DNA of 37,495 nt from Kiritimatiellia bacterium (GTDB taxonomy: Bacteria; Verrucomicrobiota; Kiritimatiellia; RFP12; UBA1067). The DNA is taken from positions 1 to 37,495 of the forward strand of contig JAFSTA010000102.1 of the NCBI GenBank assembly GCA_017450695.1, given 5' to 3'. Below are positions 17,987 through 35,343 of this stretch, in pieces (position 1 is the first letter of the stretch; every line of letters starts with the position of its first letter). Below the pieces are notes generated by a model. It saw nothing but the letters and a program-made list of their open reading frames with translations. It made no database searches and was not told the DNA's origin. Made by a program: the position numbers and the translations under genes.

Positions 17987-19522
17987 CTACTGAACCGCCA
18001 CCGCGACGCTGCCCTTGCCCTTCAACACGGCGGTGCCGTAACCGATACCGTCGGTGACCGCGCCGAAGACGTTGAACTTGTTCTTCACGAGCTTGCCGCC
18101 CTTCACCGCGTACACCGTGAACGAACCCTTGAACAGCCCCGTCTTCGCCGTATAGGTCAGCTTCAGTCCCGACACGTTCGCGCCGGCGACGGTCACGCCG
18201 CCCTTGTAGGCGACTTTCGCCGCCTTGCCCGCGTCCCACTTGGTACCCTTCACCGTCAACGGGATGGCGAACGGCGTCTGCTCGATCGCGCCCGGCACAA
18301 GGACGGACAGCTTCGCATCGTCCAGCGCGACCGTGTGCGCACCGGCCGTGAGATTGTCCTTTGCACCAAAACCTGCGACATTCCACGCCATCGTGAACGC
18401 GGGTTTCACCGTGTTCCGCCACGGCGTAAGCGCCGTCACGTCCACCAGTTCGCGGGTATTCTTGTCAAACCAGGCGACAAACCCGAACTTGCTTTTCTTC
18501 GAGTAGACCACGGGGACGCAGCAGTAGGTGTCGCCGACGGTCATCTGCGCGGAAGCCGTCACCTTCGTGCCGTCCGCCAGTACGCCGGAGACCTTCGCCT
18601 TGCCCTTCACCGCCATTGCGATGGAAAGCGTCGAAGACCCGCCCTGCGCGTAGGTGTCGGGGTTCTCCGTTCCCAGCGCGACCACGTAACCCTTGCCGCT
18701 GAACTTCGACAACACGGCGAGCGCGGCGGTGTCCTTCGCCTTCGCCGCGTCCGCTCCGCCCTCCAGCGTCCCGACTTTCGCGACCGTCCCGCCGACCGCG
18801 TTCGCACCGAACGTCAATCCCGCGAGACCGCCGCTCCCCTCGCCGGTCGCCAGGTTTACAGCCCCGGTTACCTTCGTCTTCTTGCCTGTGGCTAGCGAGA
18901 CGAACGTCAGCGTCGCGGCTGCGGTGTCCTTCCCCTTCACGGGTTTCTTCACCGCCAGCACGAACGTCCCGGCGACATTCCCATCCGCATCCTTCGCATA
19001 TCCGTTGAACGTCCCGCCCTTGTACGTGGAAGGGACATTCCCGTAGAAGGGGTTCACGTGAAGCGTGTAAGATATCGGTACAGGCGATGCCCCTACAGAC
19101 AGGGCAAGCCCCGAAATCGTCGAACCGGGATTCGGGGCCAGCAATGTGTCCACGTTCTCGCCGTCCAGCGTGATCGAGGTGGGGGTAAGCACTTCCGTAT
19201 CCGGCGTTCCCGTCCTCCAAACCTTCAGCGCGAGCACGGTATCCTTCGCGGCGTAGAGCGTGAATTCCAGTTTCGACTGGAACACTTCACCGTATCCGCA
19301 GAATACGGTTCCATCCGTACCTTCGCGGAAGACCGCGACGGCGTCACCCTCTGCGGCGGTCTGTCCGTCGAACGTCAACGTGACGTTCTCGTAGGTCGTC
19401 GGGGCGAATATCGTATCCCCCTCCGTCTGGACGACCTTATCTTCATTCCACGGGGTTCCCAGCGCGAACTGCCCGGCAAGGAAAACCAACCCGGCAAAAA
19501 AGTTCAGTAATTCCTTCTTCAT
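17987..19522 (-). CDS. Exported protein with module N and KTGLFKGSF C-terminal module
   Basis: 511 aa from ATG 19522, which has GGAGG at the better spacing of 5 bp; ATG 19525 one codon earlier is also possible. The signal peptide is MKKELLNFFAGLVFLAGQFALG. Module N (about 38-138) is near-identical to that in the 1274-aa protein. The middle is Gly/Ala/Lys/Thr-rich and beta-prone, with several repeats of a pattern like GTFNGYAKDADGNVAGTFVL. The C-terminus carries LTYTAKTGLFKGSFTVYA (about 454), shared with the 1274-aa protein. It contains no LRR or InlB repeats, so it may be the minimal member of this surface set. It starts 23 bp after the 1511-aa gene. Function unknown. Confidence 0.82.
   Translation of the reverse strand: MKKELLNFFAGLVFLAGQFALGTPWNEDKVVQTEGDTIFAPTTYENVTLTFDGQTAAEGDAVAVFREGTDGTVFCGYGEVFQSKLEFTLYAAKDTVLALKVWRTGTPDTEVLTPTSITLDGENVDTLLAPNPGSTISGLALSVGASPVPISYTLHVNPFYGNVPSTYKGGTFNGYAKDADGNVAGTFVLAVKKPVKGKDTAAATLTFVSLATGKKTKVTGAVNLATGEGSGGLAGLTFGANAVGGTVAKVGTLEGGADAAKAKDTAALAVLSKFSGKGYVVALGTENPDTYAQGGSSTLSIAMAVKGKAKVSGVLADGTKVTASAQMTVGDTYCCVPVVYSKKSKFGFVAWFDKNTRELVDVTALTPWRNTVKPAFTMAWNVAGFGAKDNLTAGAHTVALDDAKLSVLVPGAIEQTPFAIPLTVKGTKWDAGKAAKVAYKGGVTVAGANVSGLKLTYTAKTGLFKGSFTVYAVKGGKLVKNKFNVFGAVTDGIGYGTAVLKGKGSVAVAVQ
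19108..19407 (-). repeat. 300-bp near-identical module N, copy 2
   Basis: Partner of 13460-13759. It lies at the start of the mature 511-aa protein. Confidence 0.85.
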
Positions 19523-25232: not shown

Positions 25233-25262
25233 GGGAGGGGCGCGACGAGGCGCGCCCCTCCC
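25233..25262 (-). terminator. Perfect 12-bp GC hairpin with T-rich tail on the minus strand
   Basis: GGGAGGGGCGCG and CGCGCCCCTCCC enclose a 6-nt loop. On the minus strand it is followed by GACCATTCTTCATTCTTC and a T-run. It could stop read-through from the DUF1846 gene. The stem shares the GGGGCGCG core with the dispersed GGTCGCGAC family. Confidence 0.6.
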
Positions 25263-25456
25263 GTTCTTTCCTCCGCGTCTCTGTACCTCCGCGTGAGATA
25301 AAAACGACAACAAGGACAACAAGGGACAACAAAAAGATGTCTTCGGTTAACAAACGAACCACAGACCAACACGGACGCGCCGCGCTTACGCTTGCGCACT
25401 TCAAGACCAAGGCGAGCGTTCGCGATGCCTGTCCGTGTACGTCCGTTTGTTTTAGC

Positions 25457-25483
25457 CACAAAGAGCACAAAGGGCACAAAGGT
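25457..25483 (+). repeat. Three 9-bp tandem units of CACAAAGNN
   Basis: CACAAAGAG, CACAAAGGG and CACAAAGGT follow directly. A reverse-orientation relative lies at 37345-37365. Confidence 0.7.
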
Positions 25484-25607
25484 ATGGGGCGTCGCGCCCT
25501 GCGCCTCCGCGTGAGATAAAAAACGGGCTTTGTCGCGTCCGTTCCCGCACGGCGCGTGGGGACATGCGCCCGCCCGCACGACAGGCGACATCCGACAGCC
25601 GGCACTC

Positions 25608-25633
25608 GGTCGCGACGGGGCGCGCCCCTCCCG
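25608..25633 (+). repeat. GGTCGCGACGGGGCGCG dispersed repeat (one of several copies)
   Basis: Closely related copies lie at 25962-25987, 27706-27722, 27731-27747 and 29326-29342, and in reverse at 35141-35160. All are intergenic. Confidence 0.65.
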
Positions 25634-26067
25634 ACCTTTCCTTCGCGTCTCTGTGACTCCGCGTGAGATCCCAAACGAGGAATCCGGAATCACTGCTTCC
25701 CCAACTATCTACCTTCCACGAAGTGCGCTTCGCGCATCTGCATTTCTATGCGGGATTGCTGAAACATCCGCCTCTTTTGCATACGATACCCCGCAGGTTC
25801 AAAACATATGTTTTTTTGTTCATCAAAACCAAGGAATCCGCCTGCCCGATGTCACGACTCGTCAGGCGCAACGTCTTCAATACAAAGAACACAAAGGGGC
25901 GGAATAATCCTTGTGATCTTTGTAGCCCTTGCGGCAAAGCCTTGATGTTCACGCCGTCTCCGGTCGCGACGGGGCGCTACTCTCCCGTTGTGTCGCGGTC
26001 GTTCCCGTTCTATAAGCGGTCGCGCGGCAGCGCGATCCTCTCCCCAAAGTGCCGATCCGTCACGCGA
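25634..26067. other. Gene-free stretch beyond the DUF1846 gene end
   Basis: No convincing gene. It contains a foldback of CACAAAG-type repeats at 25881-25924 and a GGTCGCGAC copy at 25962-25987. Confidence 0.55.
25881..25924. repeat. Foldback built from CACAAAG-type repeat
   Basis: Left arm TACAAAGAACACAAAGG and right arm CCTTGTGATCTTTGTA pair with one mismatch and one bulge around an 11-nt loop. The arms are the same repeat family as 25457-25483, here in inverted arrangement. Confidence 0.65.
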
Positions 26068-27585
26068 TCACGCATCGACGAAGAGATCGGTGCTCGCGAA
26101 GAACGGATCGGTCGTGCAACGGATGCCGATACGGCGGAGTCCGGCGGCATCTCCCGGGGTGACCATGTGCGTCATGTGCATTTCGCAATCGCGCAAGTCC
26201 AGCAGCTTCTCCGTCGCGATCTGCGCGGCGGGATTGGAAGGGCAGCTGATCGCCAATCCGATCAACGCCTCGTCCAGATTGAGGCTCGTGTTCTTGCTCT
26301 TCAGGAGGTCATGCTTCATGTGGATGATCGACTGCACGTACTGCGGCGAGATCAAATGGAGCGGATCGGGAATTCCCGCCAGCTTTTTGATCGCGTTCAA
26401 CACGACAGCCGCCGCCGCATGAAGCTCGTTGGAGTTTTTGCCGATCACAACCCGACCGTCCTTCAGCTGCAAAGCCGCTCCGACATACGTGCCGTTGTGC
26501 CCTTTTCCGCACTCTTTCGCAGCCTTGCCCGCCTCACGGGCGGGCTTGACGATCAGGCGATCTTCCGGAACGAGCTTCAGTTTTTTCATCAGTTCGTCCA
26601 CCCGATCCAGCGCGGACTGTTCCCCCTGTCCCAGAGTGTATTCGCAGAGATGCCGGAAATAACGACGGATCACCTCCTGTCGCGACGCTTCGCAGACAAC
26701 CGCATCATCGACAATTCCGCAACTGATTTTGTTTACGCCCATGTCCGTCGGGGACTTGTAAGGGCAGGCGTCATTCGTCATCTTCTCCCAAATCGCACGA
26801 AGCAACGGGAATGCCGCGACATCGCGGTTATAGTTGATCGCCTCCAGATTGTACGCCTGCAGATGATAGGGGTCAACCTCGTTGAAATCCTTCAGGTCGG
26901 CAGTTGCCGCCTCATACGCGATGTTGACGGGATGGTCAAGCGGCAGATCCCACACGGGAAAGGTCTCGAACTTCGCGTATCCCGCCATGCGTCCCTGCTT
27001 GTGCTCGTGATACAGTTGGGTCAGGCAGGTGGCGAGCTTCCCGCTGCCGGGACCGGGGGCAGTGACCACGACGATCGGCCGCTCGGTCGGGACGAACTCG
27101 TTCGCGCCGTACCCCTTCTCGCTCACGATCGTATCGACATCGGTCGGATACCCCTGCGTCACATAGTGGTAGTGGACGGAAATGCCGCGATGCTCCAAAC
27201 GCGCGCGGAACTGCTGCGCGGGCTTCTGTCCGCTGTACCGCGTAATGACAACCGCCCGGACAAGCAAACCGAGATTCCGCAACCCGTCGATCAACCGCAG
27301 GGTATCGCTCTCGTAGGAAATGCCGAAATCCGCCCGCATCTTTTTCCGTTCGATATCCCCCGCATAGATACACAGGATAATCTCCGCCTTGTCCTTCAGC
27401 TTCTGAAGAAGCCTCAGCTTCACATTGGGATCGTAACCGGGGAGAATGCGCGCCGCGTGCAAATCCTGCATCAGCTTGCCGCCAAACTCCAGATAGAGCT
27501 TATTCCCGTTCTTTTCCGCACGACGCAGGATCTCCTCCGTCTGCTCCGACAAATACTTCTCGTTGTCAAATCCGATCTGCTGCAT
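26068..27585 (-). CDS. DUF1846 family protein (cytoplasmic, function not established)
   Basis: 505 aa, the usual length for DUF1846 (PF08903). Characteristic stretches are GFDNEKYLSEQTEEI (5-19), YLEFGGKLMQDLHAARILPGYD (31-52), a P-loop-like APGPGSGK (176-183) and GRMAGYAKFETFPVWDLPLDHPVN. There is no signal peptide or membrane segment. The family is widespread in anaerobes and its structure is known, but I know of no firmly assigned reaction; the P-loop-like motif suggests nucleotide binding. GGAAGG is close to ATG 27585. It stands alone: a gene-free kilobase lies downstream and a 600-bp repeat region upstream. Confidence 0.9.
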   Translation of the reverse strand: MQQIGFDNEKYLSEQTEEILRRAEKNGNKLYLEFGGKLMQDLHAARILPGYDPNVKLRLLQKLKDKAEIILCIYAGDIERKKMRADFGISYESDTLRLIDGLRNLGLLVRAVVITRYSGQKPAQQFRARLEHRGISVHYHYVTQGYPTDVDTIVSEKGYGANEFVPTERPIVVVTAPGPGSGKLATCLTQLYHEHKQGRMAGYAKFETFPVWDLPLDHPVNIAYEAATADLKDFNEVDPYHLQAYNLEAINYNRDVAAFPLLRAIWEKMTNDACPYKSPTDMGVNKISCGIVDDAVVCEASRQEVIRRYFRHLCEYTLGQGEQSALDRVDELMKKLKLVPEDRLIVKPAREAGKAAKECGKGHNGTYVGAALQLKDGRVVIGKNSNELHAAAAVVLNAIKKLAGIPDPLHLISPQYVQSIIHMKHDLLKSKNTSLNLDEALIGLAISCPSNPAAQIATEKLLDLRDCEMHMTHMVTPGDAAGLRRIGIRCTTDPFFASTDLFVDA

Positions 27586-27614
27586 AGCCTTCCACGCTTT
27601 CCTTGAACAAAAAC

Positions 27615-29614: not shown

Positions 29615-30322
29615 ATGATTGATCTATCGACAAAACGTTTTCTCTGCCCTGCGATCAGCAAGGAGGGTATCCCCTTTGTGATCGCCGGATTCATCTTCAC
29701 CCTGCTCCTGTGTACGGGATTCGCTTTCCTCCATCGATGGCTCGCCTGGTACGGTGTGGTCTGCGCGGCGATTCTGGGACTGGGGCTGACCTACGCGATC
29801 TACCTTTTTTTCCGCGATCCGGAACGTGTTTCCCCCGATGACCCCGCACTGGTTCTCTCCCCGGCGGATGGTTTTGTCTCCCTGATCCAGGAAGTTCCCC
29901 TTCCCAAGGAATTCGGGACGGAGTTCGGAACGGAGCCGGTTTGGCGCGTGAGCGTGTTTATGTCCGTTCTGAATGTACACGTCAACCGGATGCCGGTGGG
30001 CGGCACGATTGTCAAGGATGTGTATGTGCCGGGCGCGTTCATCAACGCCTCGTTGGACAAGGCGAGCGAAAAGAACGAACGGCACCTGTACCTTGTCAAA
30101 ACGGATCAGGGGCGGCAGGTCGCCTTTGTGCAGATCGCGGGGCTGATCGCCCGACGGATTGTCAGCCGTGTCCGCGAAGGACAAAAGCTCCAGCGCGGTG
30201 AACGGTTCGGATTGATCCGATTTGGAAGCCGACTGGACATTTATCTGCCGAAGGGTGTCCTTCCAAGCGTGAAACTCGGGCAGATGATGGTTGCGGGAGA
30301 AACCCCACTTGCGAGGTTGTAA
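29615..30322 (+). CDS. psd: Phosphatidylserine decarboxylase, short type
   Basis: 235 aa from ATG 29615. It decarboxylates phosphatidylserine to phosphatidylethanolamine at the inner membrane. The N-terminus has the family's EGIPFVIAG stretch and two hydrophobic segments (about 20-65), then FFRDPERVSPDDPALVLSPADG (about 68-90), the NVHVNRMPVGG motif, and the self-cleavage site G204-S205 (IRFGSRLDIYLP), whose Ser becomes the pyruvoyl cofactor. This is the short (about 210-230 aa) form. A TTG at 29543 preceded by GGAGGTGAT could add 24 residues, but the extension lacks family similarity and a candidate promoter would start downstream of that ribosome site. The stop overlaps the pssA start (TAATG), so translation is coupled. 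Confidence 0.92.
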   Translation: MIDLSTKRFLCPAISKEGIPFVIAGFIFTLLLCTGFAFLHRWLAWYGVVCAAILGLGLTYAIYLFFRDPERVSPDDPALVLSPADGFVSLIQEVPLPKEFGTEFGTEPVWRVSVFMSVLNVHVNRMPVGGTIVKDVYVPGAFINASLDKASEKNERHLYLVKTDQGRQVAFVQIAGLIARRIVSRVREGQKLQRGERFGLIRFGSRLDIYLPKGVLPSVKLGQMMVAGETPLARL

Positions 30323-31173
30323 TGTCGAAATTCAGATTGCGCGGAAAAAAACAGAAGAAGGATAACAAGCGGGAGATTCCCATTCAGAGAATCATTCCCA
30401 ATATGCTGACCTTTATGGCGGCAGCGTTCGGGATCACCTCGATCCGTTACAGTTGCGCGGGCGAATGGAAACGTGCCGCGGTTTACATCCTGATTTCGTG
30501 CTTTCTGGACGGAATCGATGGCCGTGTTGCTCGTCTGCTTCGCGCCACCTCCAAACTCGGCGCGGAACTGGACTCGCTCTCCGACTTCGTCAGTTTCGGA
30601 GTCGCTCCCGCGATGCTCCTCTACTTCTGGATCATGCAGACCGTCGTTCCTGGCAGCGCCTACCACGCCTATCGCGGCATCTTCTGGGGACTCGCCCTCT
30701 TCTATGCGCTCTGCTGCGGATTCCGCCTCGCAAGGTTCAATATCATGATTGAGGATGGACCGACGCAACCGTACTGGAAACATTTCTTCCTCGGTCTTCC
30801 CGCCCCCGGAGGCGCGGGGCTTGTCATGCTTCCGCTCGTCATCTATTTCATTACCGATGCCGCGATCTGCCTCTCCCCCGTTCTCTGCTCCCTCTCGCTG
30901 CTGATCTGCGGAATTCTTCTGGCGGGACGGATTCCGACGCTCTCTGCCAAGCATCTGCGCGTTCCGCGCGTGTGGATGTTCCCGTTCATCCTGCTCGTCA
31001 TCTTTATCGTTTGTGTCTTCGTCGCGCGTCCGTGGATCGCGCTGGCGATCATTGGAACGATCTATTACCTGTCCATCCCGATTTGCGGCTATCTCTTCTT
31101 ACGCATGAAGCGCCGCTATGAAAACTCGCTTGGCAACTCTCTGCCCAGAGAAAGAACGCGACAAGGAGACTAG
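30322..31173 (+). CDS. pssA: CDP-diacylglycerol-serine O-phosphatidyltransferase
   Basis: 283 aa integral membrane enzyme that joins CDP-diacylglycerol and L-serine to phosphatidylserine, the substrate of the preceding psd product. The CDP-alcohol phosphatidyltransferase motif D66-G-x2-A70-R71-x8-G80-x3-D84-x3-D88 is intact. Hydrophobic segments occur before it (about 28-42, 52-62) and at about 90-108, 118-132, 155-175, 180-200, 217-233 and 238-260. N-terminal residues 1-20 are very basic. The start codon ATG 30322 overlaps the psd stop by one base. The psd-pssA pair completes phosphatidylethanolamine synthesis, as in many Gram-negative bacteria. It ends 2 bp before the DUF1080 gene. Confidence 0.93.
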   Translation: MSKFRLRGKKQKKDNKREIPIQRIIPNMLTFMAAAFGITSIRYSCAGEWKRAAVYILISCFLDGIDGRVARLLRATSKLGAELDSLSDFVSFGVAPAMLLYFWIMQTVVPGSAYHAYRGIFWGLALFYALCCGFRLARFNIMIEDGPTQPYWKHFFLGLPAPGGAGLVMLPLVIYFITDAAICLSPVLCSLSLLICGILLAGRIPTLSAKHLRVPRVWMFPFILLVIFIVCVFVARPWIALAIIGTIYYLSIPICGYLFLRMKRRYENSLGNSLPRERTRQGD

Positions 31174-31175
31174 TT

Positions 31176-32015
31176 ATGGTTACAAAACGGAAGCAGCTTT
31201 CACGATATGCGGCAGGTCTCGCCCTGTTTTTCGCTTGCATCGGCTCCATGCAGCTTTCTGCGCAAGATCCCGTTCCAGTCGCAGTCACGGAAGAGATCGA
31301 GCTCTTCAATGGAAAGGATCTGACGAACTGGTACCGTTTCATCAAGGGACGCGGCAAGGAGAACGACCCAAAGCATGTCTTTTCCGTCGTCAACGGCGTT
31401 CTTCGCGTTTCAGGCGAAGAAATGGGGTGCATCACGACGGAAAAAGCCTACCGTGATTACCACCTGACCGTCGAGTACCGCTGGACGGGGCGGAGTTATG
31501 GGAGCAAGAAAAAGTGCGCACCGGACAGCGGCATCCTCTTCCATTCCATCGGCAAGGACGGCGGTTTCGGCGACACCTGGATGCTATCCCACGAGTACAA
31601 CCTGATTCTCGGAGCCTCCGGCGATTTCTGGACGGTCGGGACGAAGGAACGGCCTGACATCTTTCTCGAAGCGACCGTTGGCGAAGAACGGTTGGGTGGA
31701 AAATATTACATCTACAGTCCGACGGGAAAGACCGTTCGGTTGACAGGAAACGACCGCGTATGCCGAATGGACATAGCGCGTGATTGGGCGGACGCACCGA
31801 CCGTTCGTCCTGCAGATAACGAAAAGCCCCTCGGCGAATGGAATACGGCGGAACTGATTTGCGAGGGAGATCGCGTCACCTGTCTCTTCAACGGCAAGGT
31901 GGTCAACCGCGCACGCGTCCAACCATCCGCTGGAAAAATCCAGTTGCAGTCGGAACTCTGCGGCATCGAATTCCGCCGCATCACCCTCTCTCCGCTTAAA
32001 AAAAAACTGAACTGA
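31176..32015 (+). CDS. Secreted DUF1080 protein (3-keto-disaccharide hydrolase-like), ends in an A9 run
   Basis: 279 aa. AAGGAG lies before ATG 31176. A signal peptide covers about residues 1-29 (YAAGLALFFACIGSMQLSAQ). Residues about 40-273 are one DUF1080 (PF06439) concanavalin-like domain: ELFNGKDLTNWYRF, GVLRVSGEEMGCI, DYHLTVEYRW, PDSGILFHS, EWNTAELICEGDRV, GKIQLQSELCGIEFRRITL. Members are implicated in cleaving 3-keto-glycosides; no active-site residue can be asserted here. The last codons lie in nine adenines (31998-32006), then a TGA. A -1 slip there would continue into the SUMF1/sialidase frame, giving a 1274-aa fusion. It starts 2 bp after pssA, so it is probably co-transcribed. Confidence 0.88.
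   Translation: MVTKRKQLSRYAAGLALFFACIGSMQLSAQDPVPVAVTEEIELFNGKDLTNWYRFIKGRGKENDPKHVFSVVNGVLRVSGEEMGCITTEKAYRDYHLTVEYRWTGRSYGSKKKCAPDSGILFHSIGKDGGFGDTWMLSHEYNLILGASGDFWTVGTKERPDIFLEATVGEERLGGKYYIYSPTGKTVRLTGNDRVCRMDIARDWADAPTVRPADNEKPLGEWNTAELICEGDRVTCLFNGKVVNRARVQPSAGKIQLQSELCGIEFRRITLSPLKKKLN
31998..32006 (+). promoter_or_regulatory. A9 homopolymer: possible programmed -1 slip or frameshift lesion
   Basis: The zero frame reads CTT AAA AAA AAA CTG AAC TGA. A -1 slip on the A-run gives ...KKKTELNVNSLGMRLIPI, restoring the NSLGM motif that normally begins SUMF1 domains. That stretch lies upstream of the next available ATG (32033) in the -1 frame and has no start codon of its own other than CTG 32012. 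Confidence 0.6.
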
Positions 32016-32032
32016 ACGTCAACTCGCTCGGG

Positions 32033-34999
32033 ATGCGACTGATCCCGATTCCGCTCGGCACTTCGCTTTTCGGTGGACTGGGACGGGATATTCATTTCGA
32101 CGAGGTGCCGCCGCAAACAATCCGTGTCTCTCATTCGTTTCGTGTCTCCGAAACGGAAGTGACCAACGAACAGTTCGAGAAGTTCCGTCCCGAACACCGC
32201 TCACTTCGCGGGAAGAACGGGTTTTCGAAAGAGAACGACGAGGCGGTTATCTACGTCAGTTGGCATGACGCCGTCGCCTTCTGCGCGTGGCTTTCCCAAC
32301 GCGAAGGTCGCACCTACCGCCTGCCGACGGAAGAGGAGTGGGAGTATGCCTGTCGCGCCGGGTCGGTGACGGATTTCGCCATCGACCGCAATGCGCTCAA
32401 GAAGAATCAAAAACTGGAGTGGACACCGGTCTCCGTTTCCCTCCGCGTGAAGGAGACGCCTCCGAACGCCTGGGGGCTTTACGACATGCACGGGAATGTG
32501 GAAGAATGGTGCGCGGACTGGTACGGAGCCTATCCCGTCCCCATCCCCGAACGGTACGACGGTCCCGAAACGGGATATGCGCGGATCGTACGAGGCGGCA
32601 GCCACAACACGCAGCTTGAATTCCTGAGATCTTCCAACCGAAGCGCGCTGCTGCCGGAGGACAAAACTCTCTTCACGGGATTCCGCATCGTGGAAGATCT
32701 GTCGGGGCATCCCCTCGCCGCTTCGGTTCCACAAACCCCAGGGACAGATACGCAGTCGCTCTCCCCTCCCCCCACTTCTTCCGCCATCCCGCTTCCTTCC
32801 GCCTCGGAGGCACCTCCAACCTTCGCCGAACCGATTCCGTTCGTGCGGTTGGATAACCAACGCGCCACCCCTTTCTTCTATCGGCACAACCATTGTCCGG
32901 CACTGACCTGGTTACCGAACGGTGACCTTCTGGCAATCTGGTTTTCCTGCGAGAAGGAAACCGGACGCGAAATGGTCATCCTCTCCAGCCGTCTCGCCCG
33001 TTCCCAAGGAGCCACCGAATGGTCCACGCCCGAACTTTTCTTCCAGGTCGCGGATCGGAACCTGACGGGATCTTCGCTCTTCTACGACGAACAGGAAAAC
33101 AAACTCTGGCACCTGAACGGGATGGAGGCGGCGGGGAGTTGGCAGAACCTCGCCCTCATTGGCAGATTCAGCCTGGACTCCGGACGCACCTGGTCGGCAC
33201 CGCGTATTCTCGATGCCGAACACGCGATGGGAAACCAAGTGATCGCCAGCATGTTCAAACTGCGGAACGGCACGCTCGTCCAAGCGTGCGACGCCACGCC
33301 CGCCGGCAACGGCGGCAGCATCCTCCACCTCTCGAAAGATCGCGGGAAAAGCTGGTTCCGCGCCGCCGGGAAAATCGCGGGTATCCATGCGGGCGTCGTC
33401 GAACTGAAAAACGGTGACCTCCTCGCCTTCGGGCGGGGGGACGATGTGACGAAAGGCGAAAAGGCTTGGATGCCCATGAGCCTCTCGAAAGACTGCGGTG
33501 CCTCGTGGACCGTCTCCGCCTCTCCTTTCCCGACCATCTCCTCCTGCCAGCGGTTGCAGATTCGCCGCTTGCGCGAAGGGCCGATCCTCTTCCTCTCCTT
33601 CACCGACAATGGCAAAGGCAAGGGACTGGAGTTCGTCTCGCTGCGCGGGAAGAAAATCACCGGGCACGGGCTCTTTGCCGCGTTGTCATTCGACGAGGGC
33701 AGAACATGGCCGGTCGCGCGGTTGCTTACGGACGGGAAAGAGCGTTATCTTCTCGGCGGCGCCAACAGCACCGGCTTTTTCCGGATGGATGCCGAACACG
33801 CGGAACCGCGTGGTTACCTGGCGCTCACGCAATCCCCCGACAACTGGATTCACTTGGTGAGCAGCGGCATCTACTACCGGTTCAATCTCGCATGGCTGCT
33901 GGATGAGGGATGGTCATCCCCTTCCTTCCCGACCTCGCTGAATCTTCCGTGCAAGGATCTCTCGAACCAATTGAAACAGGCGGTTCGGATTCCGGCGGGA
34001 ACATCCAAAATGAATCTCGCTCCACGGCTCCTCTGGGAACGGGAATCCCCGAACACCGTCTATCTCGGAGCGATCGCGGACGACACGACAACCGTCGCGG
34101 CGGGTCAAAAAACCATGTACTCCACCATGACCAGACTGTCGCTCCCGAACTGGGAGGTTGCAGGCCGTTATGTCGTCGGCAACAGCCGTATGGAAACGGG
34201 CGCATTCGTATTCCCGGAAGGTTGCGTCGCCGGAAACATTCCGGTCAACCGGCATGAATCCATCCGAAACATCTTCCACATCAACCACGCGTTCCACTAC
34301 CGCGAATGGGACAAGGCATCACAACGTTTCGCGCCCGAAGTCACACCGATTGATTTGCTTGACAGTACCAACCGCTATCCGCTCAGCACACTTGGCGTCA
34401 CGCGACTCTTGTCCCGGCGAAAACAAAAGGCAACCTTCTCCAATCTCTGGTTCTCGTTTGAACCGGTCCGGCACCAAGGGAAACTGTGGGGGTACATTTG
34501 CGGGAATCCCGGCGACACATTCGACGGTTGCCTCGTTTCCTCCGGCAACGACGGCGCGGCCTGGCGTGTCGAATCGATCCCGTCGTTCGGCTGCGGCAGT
34601 GCCTACGCGGGACGAGTCATGCAACGCGGCGGCAGGTTCTACCTCGCATTGCGGACAACGAAGGGAATCCGGCTCGCCAGCTATGACCCGGTGTTCAAAA
34701 CATGGCGAAATGGTATTCTTGTGGAAGGAAGTTGTGCGTCCCCTGCTCTCTTCCCCTACCAAGGTCGCATCTACGTGGTCTGCAACATCCAAGACAGGCG
34801 GCACCTGAAGTTTTTTGAATTCGTGTCCGAAACGGACATCCGTCCCGCATACGAACTCACGTCACACGAAGAACTCAGAAGCTTCACCTTCACCCCCATC
34901 GGCGAAGACCTCTACTTCGCCTACTCCATCCAGAAGCAACAGGCAACAGGGAAGGCAGCCACAGAAATCTGTATTCTCCGACTGGACTTGACCCGCTGA
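32033..34999 (+). CDS. SUMF1-like domain fused to a sialidase-like (BNR) propeller; probably the 3' part of a longer frame
   Basis: 988 aa if read from ATG 32033. Residues 1-225 are SUMF1/FGE-sulfatase-like (VSETEVTNEQFEKF, YRLPTEEEWEYACRAG, NAWGLYDMHGNVEEWCADWYG, IVRGGSHNT). The cysteine pair used by true formylglycine-generating enzymes after RGGS is missing. A Pro/Ser-rich linker follows (about 225-265), then a sialidase-like propeller with Asp-boxes SLDSGRTW (about 380), SKDRGKSW (about 434), SKDCGASW (about 484) and SFDEGRTW (about 552). The rest (620-988) looks like a second propeller-like region. There is no signal peptide and no good ribosome site at 32033, and the family motif NSLG lies just before the ATG, so the protein most likely begins in the DUF1080 gene through the A9 site. 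Confidence 0.82.
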   Translation: MRLIPIPLGTSLFGGLGRDIHFDEVPPQTIRVSHSFRVSETEVTNEQFEKFRPEHRSLRGKNGFSKENDEAVIYVSWHDAVAFCAWLSQREGRTYRLPTEEEWEYACRAGSVTDFAIDRNALKKNQKLEWTPVSVSLRVKETPPNAWGLYDMHGNVEEWCADWYGAYPVPIPERYDGPETGYARIVRGGSHNTQLEFLRSSNRSALLPEDKTLFTGFRIVEDLSGHPLAASVPQTPGTDTQSLSPPPTSSAIPLPSASEAPPTFAEPIPFVRLDNQRATPFFYRHNHCPALTWLPNGDLLAIWFSCEKETGREMVILSSRLARSQGATEWSTPELFFQVADRNLTGSSLFYDEQENKLWHLNGMEAAGSWQNLALIGRFSLDSGRTWSAPRILDAEHAMGNQVIASMFKLRNGTLVQACDATPAGNGGSILHLSKDRGKSWFRAAGKIAGIHAGVVELKNGDLLAFGRGDDVTKGEKAWMPMSLSKDCGASWTVSASPFPTISSCQRLQIRRLREGPILFLSFTDNGKGKGLEFVSLRGKKITGHGLFAALSFDEGRTWPVARLLTDGKERYLLGGANSTGFFRMDAEHAEPRGYLALTQSPDNWIHLVSSGIYYRFNLAWLLDEGWSSPSFPTSLNLPCKDLSNQLKQAVRIPAGTSKMNLAPRLLWERESPNTVYLGAIADDTTTVAAGQKTMYSTMTRLSLPNWEVAGRYVVGNSRMETGAFVFPEGCVAGNIPVNRHESIRNIFHINHAFHYREWDKASQRFAPEVTPIDLLDSTNRYPLSTLGVTRLLSRRKQKATFSNLWFSFEPVRHQGKLWGYICGNPGDTFDGCLVSSGNDGAAWRVESIPSFGCGSAYAGRVMQRGGRFYLALRTTKGIRLASYDPVFKTWRNGILVEGSCASPALFPYQGRIYVVCNIQDRRHLKFFEFVSETDIRPAYELTSHEELRSFTFTPIGEDLYFAYSIQKQQATGKAATEICILRLDLTR

Positions 35000-35266: not shown

Positions 35267-35343
35267 TGGTGGGCCCTGCAGGACTCGGACCTGCGACCTA
35301 GAGATTATGAGACTCCAGCTCTGACCAACTGAGCTAAGGGCCC
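35267..35343 (-). tRNA. tRNA with CAU anticodon, most likely tRNA-Ile2 (lysidine type)
   Basis: The 77-nt cloverleaf is complete: acceptor GGGCCCT/AGGGCCC, D arm GCTC-AGTTGGTCA-GAGC, anticodon loop CTCATAA, T arm GCAGG-TCCGAGT-CCTGC, and encoded CCA. The body follows E. coli tRNA-Ile2 (CAU) closely: acceptor, D arm, and the GGUCGC variable region. That argues for AUA-reading isoleucine tRNA, whose C34 is modified to lysidine, not elongator Met. Position 31-39 would be a U-U mismatch. The initiator hallmark of GGG/CCC pairs in the anticodon stem is absent, so it is not tRNA-fMet. Confidence 0.92.

Follow-up and report, generated by a model that had tools for sequence, protein, structure and literature searches.

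The window, a stretch of 37,495 nucleotides (nt) of contig JAFSTA010000102.1 from a Kiritimatiellia bacterium, carries on its forward strand a gene for a DUF1080 / 3-keto-disaccharide hydrolase-like protein that runs, through a short overlap in the -1 relation, into a long frame encoding a SUMF1-like domain and a BNR_2 propeller. At the seam of the two frames lies a run of nine adenines (A9). The junction is real and of a known frame-change kind, at which slipping is proposed. The elements that bear on its interpretation are as follows.

31176..32015, + strand: DUF1080 / 3-keto-disaccharide hydrolase-like open reading frame (ORF), 279 amino acids (aa), with a PF06439 match, the Shine-Dalgarno (SD) sequence AAGGAGA and a hydrophobic N-terminus
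31998..32006, + strand: A9 run, three 0-frame AAA codons and putative slip site, read from the sequence and identical at G001:C5:4147-4155
32000..32015, + strand: overlap of 16 nt between the DUF1080 and -1 frames, bounded by the stops TAA and TGA
32006..32032, + strand: -1-frame codons TELNVNSLG before the first ATG, leading into the SUMF1-like NSLGM (sequence, and the order-mates G014 and G049)
32028..32048, + strand: hairpin UCGGGAU-(7-nt loop)-AUCCCGA of 7 bp and -10.7 kcal/mol, over ATG 32033 (folding)
32033..34999, + strand: 988-aa downstream ORF, counted from its first ATG, with PF03781 and PF13088 matches, no SD and no signal peptide

The seam and its two proteins

The 0 frame closes as CTT AAA AAA AAA CTG AAC TGA, with the TGA at 32013-32015, and the sequence thus agrees with the initial annotation, which had placed nine adenines at the end of the DUF1080 frame two codons ahead of its stop. 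The -1 frame has a TAA stop at 31997-31999, is open from 32000 to 34999, and reads KKTELNVNSLGMRLIPI. The overlap at 32000-32015 is the sole interval in which a -1 shift can link both frames, and it holds seven of the nine adenines. The product of such a slip would comprise 277 + 997 residues, which on recomputation gives the 1274 aa first proposed, with a junction reading KKKTELNVNSLGMRLIPI; the predicted fusion-junction peptide stretches are LSPLKKKTELNVNSLGMR and SPLKKKTELNVNSLGMR, and the A run recoded with AAG is AAGAAGAAG. Fusion of the frames at the DNA level needs ten adenines (or seven). The earlier statement that reads with either eight or ten would mean simply fused genes therefore holds for ten, whereas eight lead into the other wrong frame and an immediate stop (LKKN*). 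Poly-A slippage genes of the tssM1, mxiE and magnesium chelatase type have a homopolymer slip site where two frames overlap, and the shift runs in the direction that joins them; this arrangement is also found here.

No other homopolymer of A or T in the window is as long as the A9 run. A pattern search of the genome (5.0 Mb in 287 contigs) listed 16 A9 matches, which reduce to 13 runs of nine or more, one run of 12 adenines having been counted four times. Of the other runs examined in this genome, none marks a place where two long frames meet, those on C205 and C274 not having been read in detail. The estimated chance of a right-strand A9 in a given short frame overlap is ~3e-5, and ~0.1 over all of the genome's gene seams; an A9 at a frame seam is notable, yet within chance genome-wide. 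The run on C48, which at first appeared to be in frame, proved to be intergenic, downstream of a gene with a double DUF1080. That gene (L204, 1413-2726, - strand) encodes two tandem DUF1080-like domains, and the A9 lies ~50 nt past its 3' end.

The upstream protein belongs to its family by a PF06439 match with an E-value of 2.7e-27 and 96.5 bits, against a gathering cut-off of 26.8. Its start is served by its own SD, with a pairing energy of -7.1 kcal/mol, and hydropathy gives it a hydrophobic, signal peptide-like N-terminus, as had been claimed. Sequence searches found no relative of solved structure for this protein. In three relatives (L073-L075, on G022:C123, G135:C359 and G136:C41) the DUF1080 frame runs past the usual stop into a C-terminal extension at the point of the slip junction.

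The start of the downstream ORF is of a different quality. Reading the -1 frame bore out that no ATG, GTG or TTG precedes ATG 32033, as well as the poor ribosome site ascribed to that codon: its best SD pairing is just -2.2 kcal/mol, and it is buried in the 7-bp hairpin. The ORF read from this ATG has, by hydropathy, no signal-peptide-like hydrophobic stretch at its N-terminus, again as first noted. Its SUMF1-like domain spans ~32039-32692 (PF03781, E 6.3e-42) and its BNR_2 propeller ~32921-33739 (PF13088, E 1.7e-20), and the C-terminal ~365 aa have no Pfam match. Structure prediction for the 998-aa protein of the -1 frame, based on 13 sequences, had a mean pLDDT of 50 and was unusable for the SUMF1 part; it merely suggests an all-beta repeat at the C-terminus. 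Assignment of the SUMF1-like domain as a formylglycine-generating enzyme (FGE) proper was rejected, leaving a SUMF1-like fold only, since the paired active-site cysteines are lacking in an alignment with human FGE, GGSHNTQLEF-LRSSNRS standing at the cysteine-bearing stretch of the human protein; the domain therefore probably has a structural or binding role. For the BNR_2 part, a putative sialidase-like character follows from family membership alone, and the fusion would be a multi-domain protein that is exported and acts on glycans.

Conservation in a sister species and among relatives

Among three other genomes of the genus, the pair is present in one, G001, where the psd-pssA-DUF1080-SUMF1 order is retained along with the A9, the TGA and the -1 relation. 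The downstream open frame of this sister species is 999 aa long and 85% identical, and neither genome has a stop or frameshift across the 3 kb of that frame. The junction itself is identical and comes from a separate assembly, which argues against assembly error. Of the alternatives initially allowed for, an error is therefore largely excluded, and a recent indel only as far back as the sharing of this segment by the two species.

Codon comparison of the window with the sister species gave dS values of 0.49 for psd, 0.21 for pssA, 0.13 for DUF1080, 0.15 for the junction and 0.94-1.2 for the remainder. Downstream of the junction dN is 0.07-0.11, and the downstream frame has a dN/dS of ~0.06-0.09 at a dS of ~1. 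This ratio, and its intactness in both species, place the downstream frame under strong purifying selection; it is no pseudogene or decaying remnant. The drop in divergence at the junction suggests a segment that was shared or recombined. Divergence from the sister locus (L065) is ~1-10% over pssA, DUF1080 and the early SUMF1 domain (window 30200-32150) and ~20% past 32150-32200, and a recombination breakpoint inside the SUMF1 domain is possible.

Relatives of the SUMF1-BNR_2 part are found in the same order and in Bacteroidales, and the family of the window's genome itself includes gut members (goat rumen isolate RGIG3692). The 14 Bacteroidales homologues (L116-L129), mostly from the rumen, are stand-alone proteins with 45-48% identity. 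Within the order, G049 encodes in one frame a signal peptide, TNSLGM-SUMF1 and BNR_2, and G014, at 42% identity, a signal peptide, a leading domain, TNSIGM-SUMF1 and BNR_2. All of these proteins have the same SUMF1-like and BNR_2 pair as the window's ORF; unlike it, each is a single frame that carries a signal peptide of its own or a leading secreted domain, none has a DUF1080, and the Bacteroidales forms are without its C-terminal 365 aa. Every one of the 16 relatives examined has a signal-peptide-like N-terminus or is positioned behind one (those of the Bacteroidales were judged by eye, hydropathy being computed for four).

NVNSLG, which the -1 frame of the window encodes immediately ahead of the ATG, matches the NS[IL]GM lead-in of G014 and G049. 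That motif opens SUMF1-BNR_2 in both; in the window a -1 shift would restore the NSLGM start of the domain, as proposed, and the stretch is placed as though it were read through. The match argues that an ancestor was translated through the NVNSLG stretch; as human FGE aligns from the Met onward, the motif speaks of ancestry and is no sign of a structural need.

Proposed slippage and its alternatives

It is proposed that the DUF1080 gene and the downstream frame are expressed as a unit and that the reading frame changes at the A9 run. Most transcripts or ribosomes would yield the secreted DUF1080 protein, ending at TGA 32015, about where its relatives end. A fraction of transcripts would gain one A by RNA-polymerase slippage (nine to ten), or the ribosome would slip one base back on AAA-AAA, and the product would be an exported protein of 1274 aa comprising DUF1080, the SUMF1-like domain, the BNR_2 propeller and the C-terminal domain. 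The DUF1080 signal peptide would thereby export a downstream enzyme that is itself without a good start or export signal. On the sequence evidence, slippage that yields secreted DUF1080 plus some secreted fusion is the reading to which we give somewhat better than an even chance; we infer that slippage occurs, the level at which it does so, and the fusion as its functional product. The further idea that the slip is programmed, setting how much of the secreted hydrolase is made alone relative to the form joined to a SUMF1-like/BNR_2 protein whose own start and export signal have been lost, is more tentative and falls somewhat short of even.

As to the slipping partner, the polymerase would be narrowly preferred to the ribosome, because the run is an A9 with no SD and no stem at a suitable distance. 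A_AAA_AAA is in frame; the sequence upstream of it is pyrimidine-rich and the hairpin downstream has a fold z of -1.6, which is not the canonical set of dnaX-type -1 programmed ribosomal frameshifting, where a slippery heptamer is joined by an SD upstream and/or a stem-loop 5-8 nt downstream. A dnaX-like stimulatory stem was accordingly rejected, as the hairpin is present but ~20 nt off and not unusually stable.

Several observations weigh against the slip. Neither an upstream SD nor a close downstream structure that would stimulate a ribosomal -1 shift was found. The junction dS of 0.13-0.15 means that a retained A9 is expected even without selection. A conserved run, which the initial annotation had proposed to look for in related genomes, is there in the sister species; owing to the low dS around it, its conservation is weak evidence of selection and was rejected as proof. 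Human FGE aligns from KMVPIPAG, so that a SUMF1 fold can begin at ATG 32033. DUF1080 relatives (40-70% identity) mostly end right after the domain, with unrelated genes next. Finally, the single fused frame that was to be sought in related genomes did not appear: searches of the family and the order, a GTDB scan and viral contigs gave no single-frame DUF1080-SUMF1 homologue. In poly-A slippage families such single-frame fused homologues are common, not universal. As the relatives of DUF1080 mostly stop after the domain and none is in a single frame with SUMF1, the DUF1080 protein probably functions by itself, with the fusion as an additional product. The proposal of a slip fusion is in sum partly supported, by the shared junction, the purifying selection, the poor start and the signals of the relatives, and weakened by the lack of a fused homologue.

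The two frames may instead be two genes of one operon, with termination at the DUF1080 stop followed by reinitiation at ATG 32033 or, less likely, at CTG 32012, which overlaps the TGA; the A run would then be incidental, and the downstream protein cytoplasmic or leaving by another route. The stop-start gap of 17 nt fits translational coupling clusters (<=10, some <=20 nt; PMC3711429), psd and pssA directly upstream themselves overlap stop and start (TAATG), the SUMF1 fold is able to begin at Met 32033, and DUF1080 relatives are complete as stand-alone proteins. As a coupled pair, however, the genes would depend on an SD pairing of -2.2 kcal/mol and an ATG within the -10.7 kcal/mol hairpin, NVNSLG would be encoded in frame before the ATG though left untranslated, and the protein would lack a signal peptide, whereas a signal-like N-terminus stands on or ahead of each SUMF1-BNR_2 relative examined. 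It had been suggested that relatives with separate genes and their own signal peptides would defeat the fusion idea. Such relatives exist, at a distance, yet they favour fusion, as the window's ORF is without exactly that signal peptide. We regard two separate genes linked by reinitiation as unlikely, if the most serious of the alternatives to slippage.

A phase-variable tract is less probable again. Replication slippage would switch nine adenines (off) to ten or seven (on, fused), the assemblies having caught the nine-A majority. An A9 tract is of a type that mutates by slippage, a poly-A tract with secreted or surface proteins is typical of such switching (PMC3711429), and the fused enzyme would be exported; but exactly nine adenines stand in both species, with no ten-A or seven-A allele in the one genome available for each. 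Homopolymers are also indel hot spots, and a formerly fused gene that was frameshifted, a decaying pseudogene or an assembly error in the homopolymer could be imagined on that ground. The same A9 in two separately assembled species, an intact 3-kb downstream frame with a dN/dS of 0.06-0.09 and the failure to find a fused gene of ancestral type make this very improbable.

Precedents, significance and other features

Frame change at A runs is best known from insertion sequences, dnaX and the type VI secretion (T6SS) gene tssM. The proposed slip mechanism is of a known kind, and would here concern secreted-type sugar enzymes of Kiritimatiellae. If the slip is true, a single exported multi-domain enzyme is divided by gene finders into two proteins, a plain hydrolase and a seemingly cytosolic, mis-localised one; frame change at A runs would extend to glycan-active enzymes secreted by uncultured Kiritimatiellae of the gut, in which one signal peptide would be shared between two secreted enzymes.

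In Citrobacter rodentium tssM1, transcript slippage on an A11 run before the stop yields both a short and a full-length protein (PMC4256274). As in the window, the poly-A closely precedes the upstream frame's stop and added A's lead to a longer protein; unlike the window, the run is an A11, slippage was measured and both forms were shown to be needed (PMC4256274). TssM1 is moreover a membrane part of a secretion machine rather than a secreted-type enzyme, and its homologues encode the full-length protein canonically. Nine adenines as A_AAA_AAA_AA gave 40% frameshifting in an Escherichia coli cassette (PMC3711429). The magnesium chelatase cluster of frameshift genes fuses two annotated genes by a -1 change at an A run (PMC3711429), as is proposed for the window, but it covers six genera, was tested and has known single-frame fusions, whereas the junction described here is known from two genomes and has no fused homologue. 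Thermus thermophilus dnaX shows transcriptional slippage on an A9 run, and nine is the length at which A or T runs begin to be avoided in the coding regions of many genomes (PMC1088944). In Thermus dnaX the long product comes from the templated frame and the short one from slippage; in the window it is the short product that the templated frame encodes.

Elsewhere in the window, a tRNA-Met(CAT) lies at 35267-35343 (- strand), shortly downstream of the sialidase-like gene. The segment at 17987-19046 belongs to a multicopy gene, with about ten strong matches (69-84% identity) in G002 and a few in G003. A GC-rich dispersed repeat with 62-nt and 27-nt units and inverted arms occupies 25237-26000, around the start of the ORF at 25663-27606, and its stretch at 25466-25670 has many partial copies at 78-92% identity across G002 and G003, both of the same genus.

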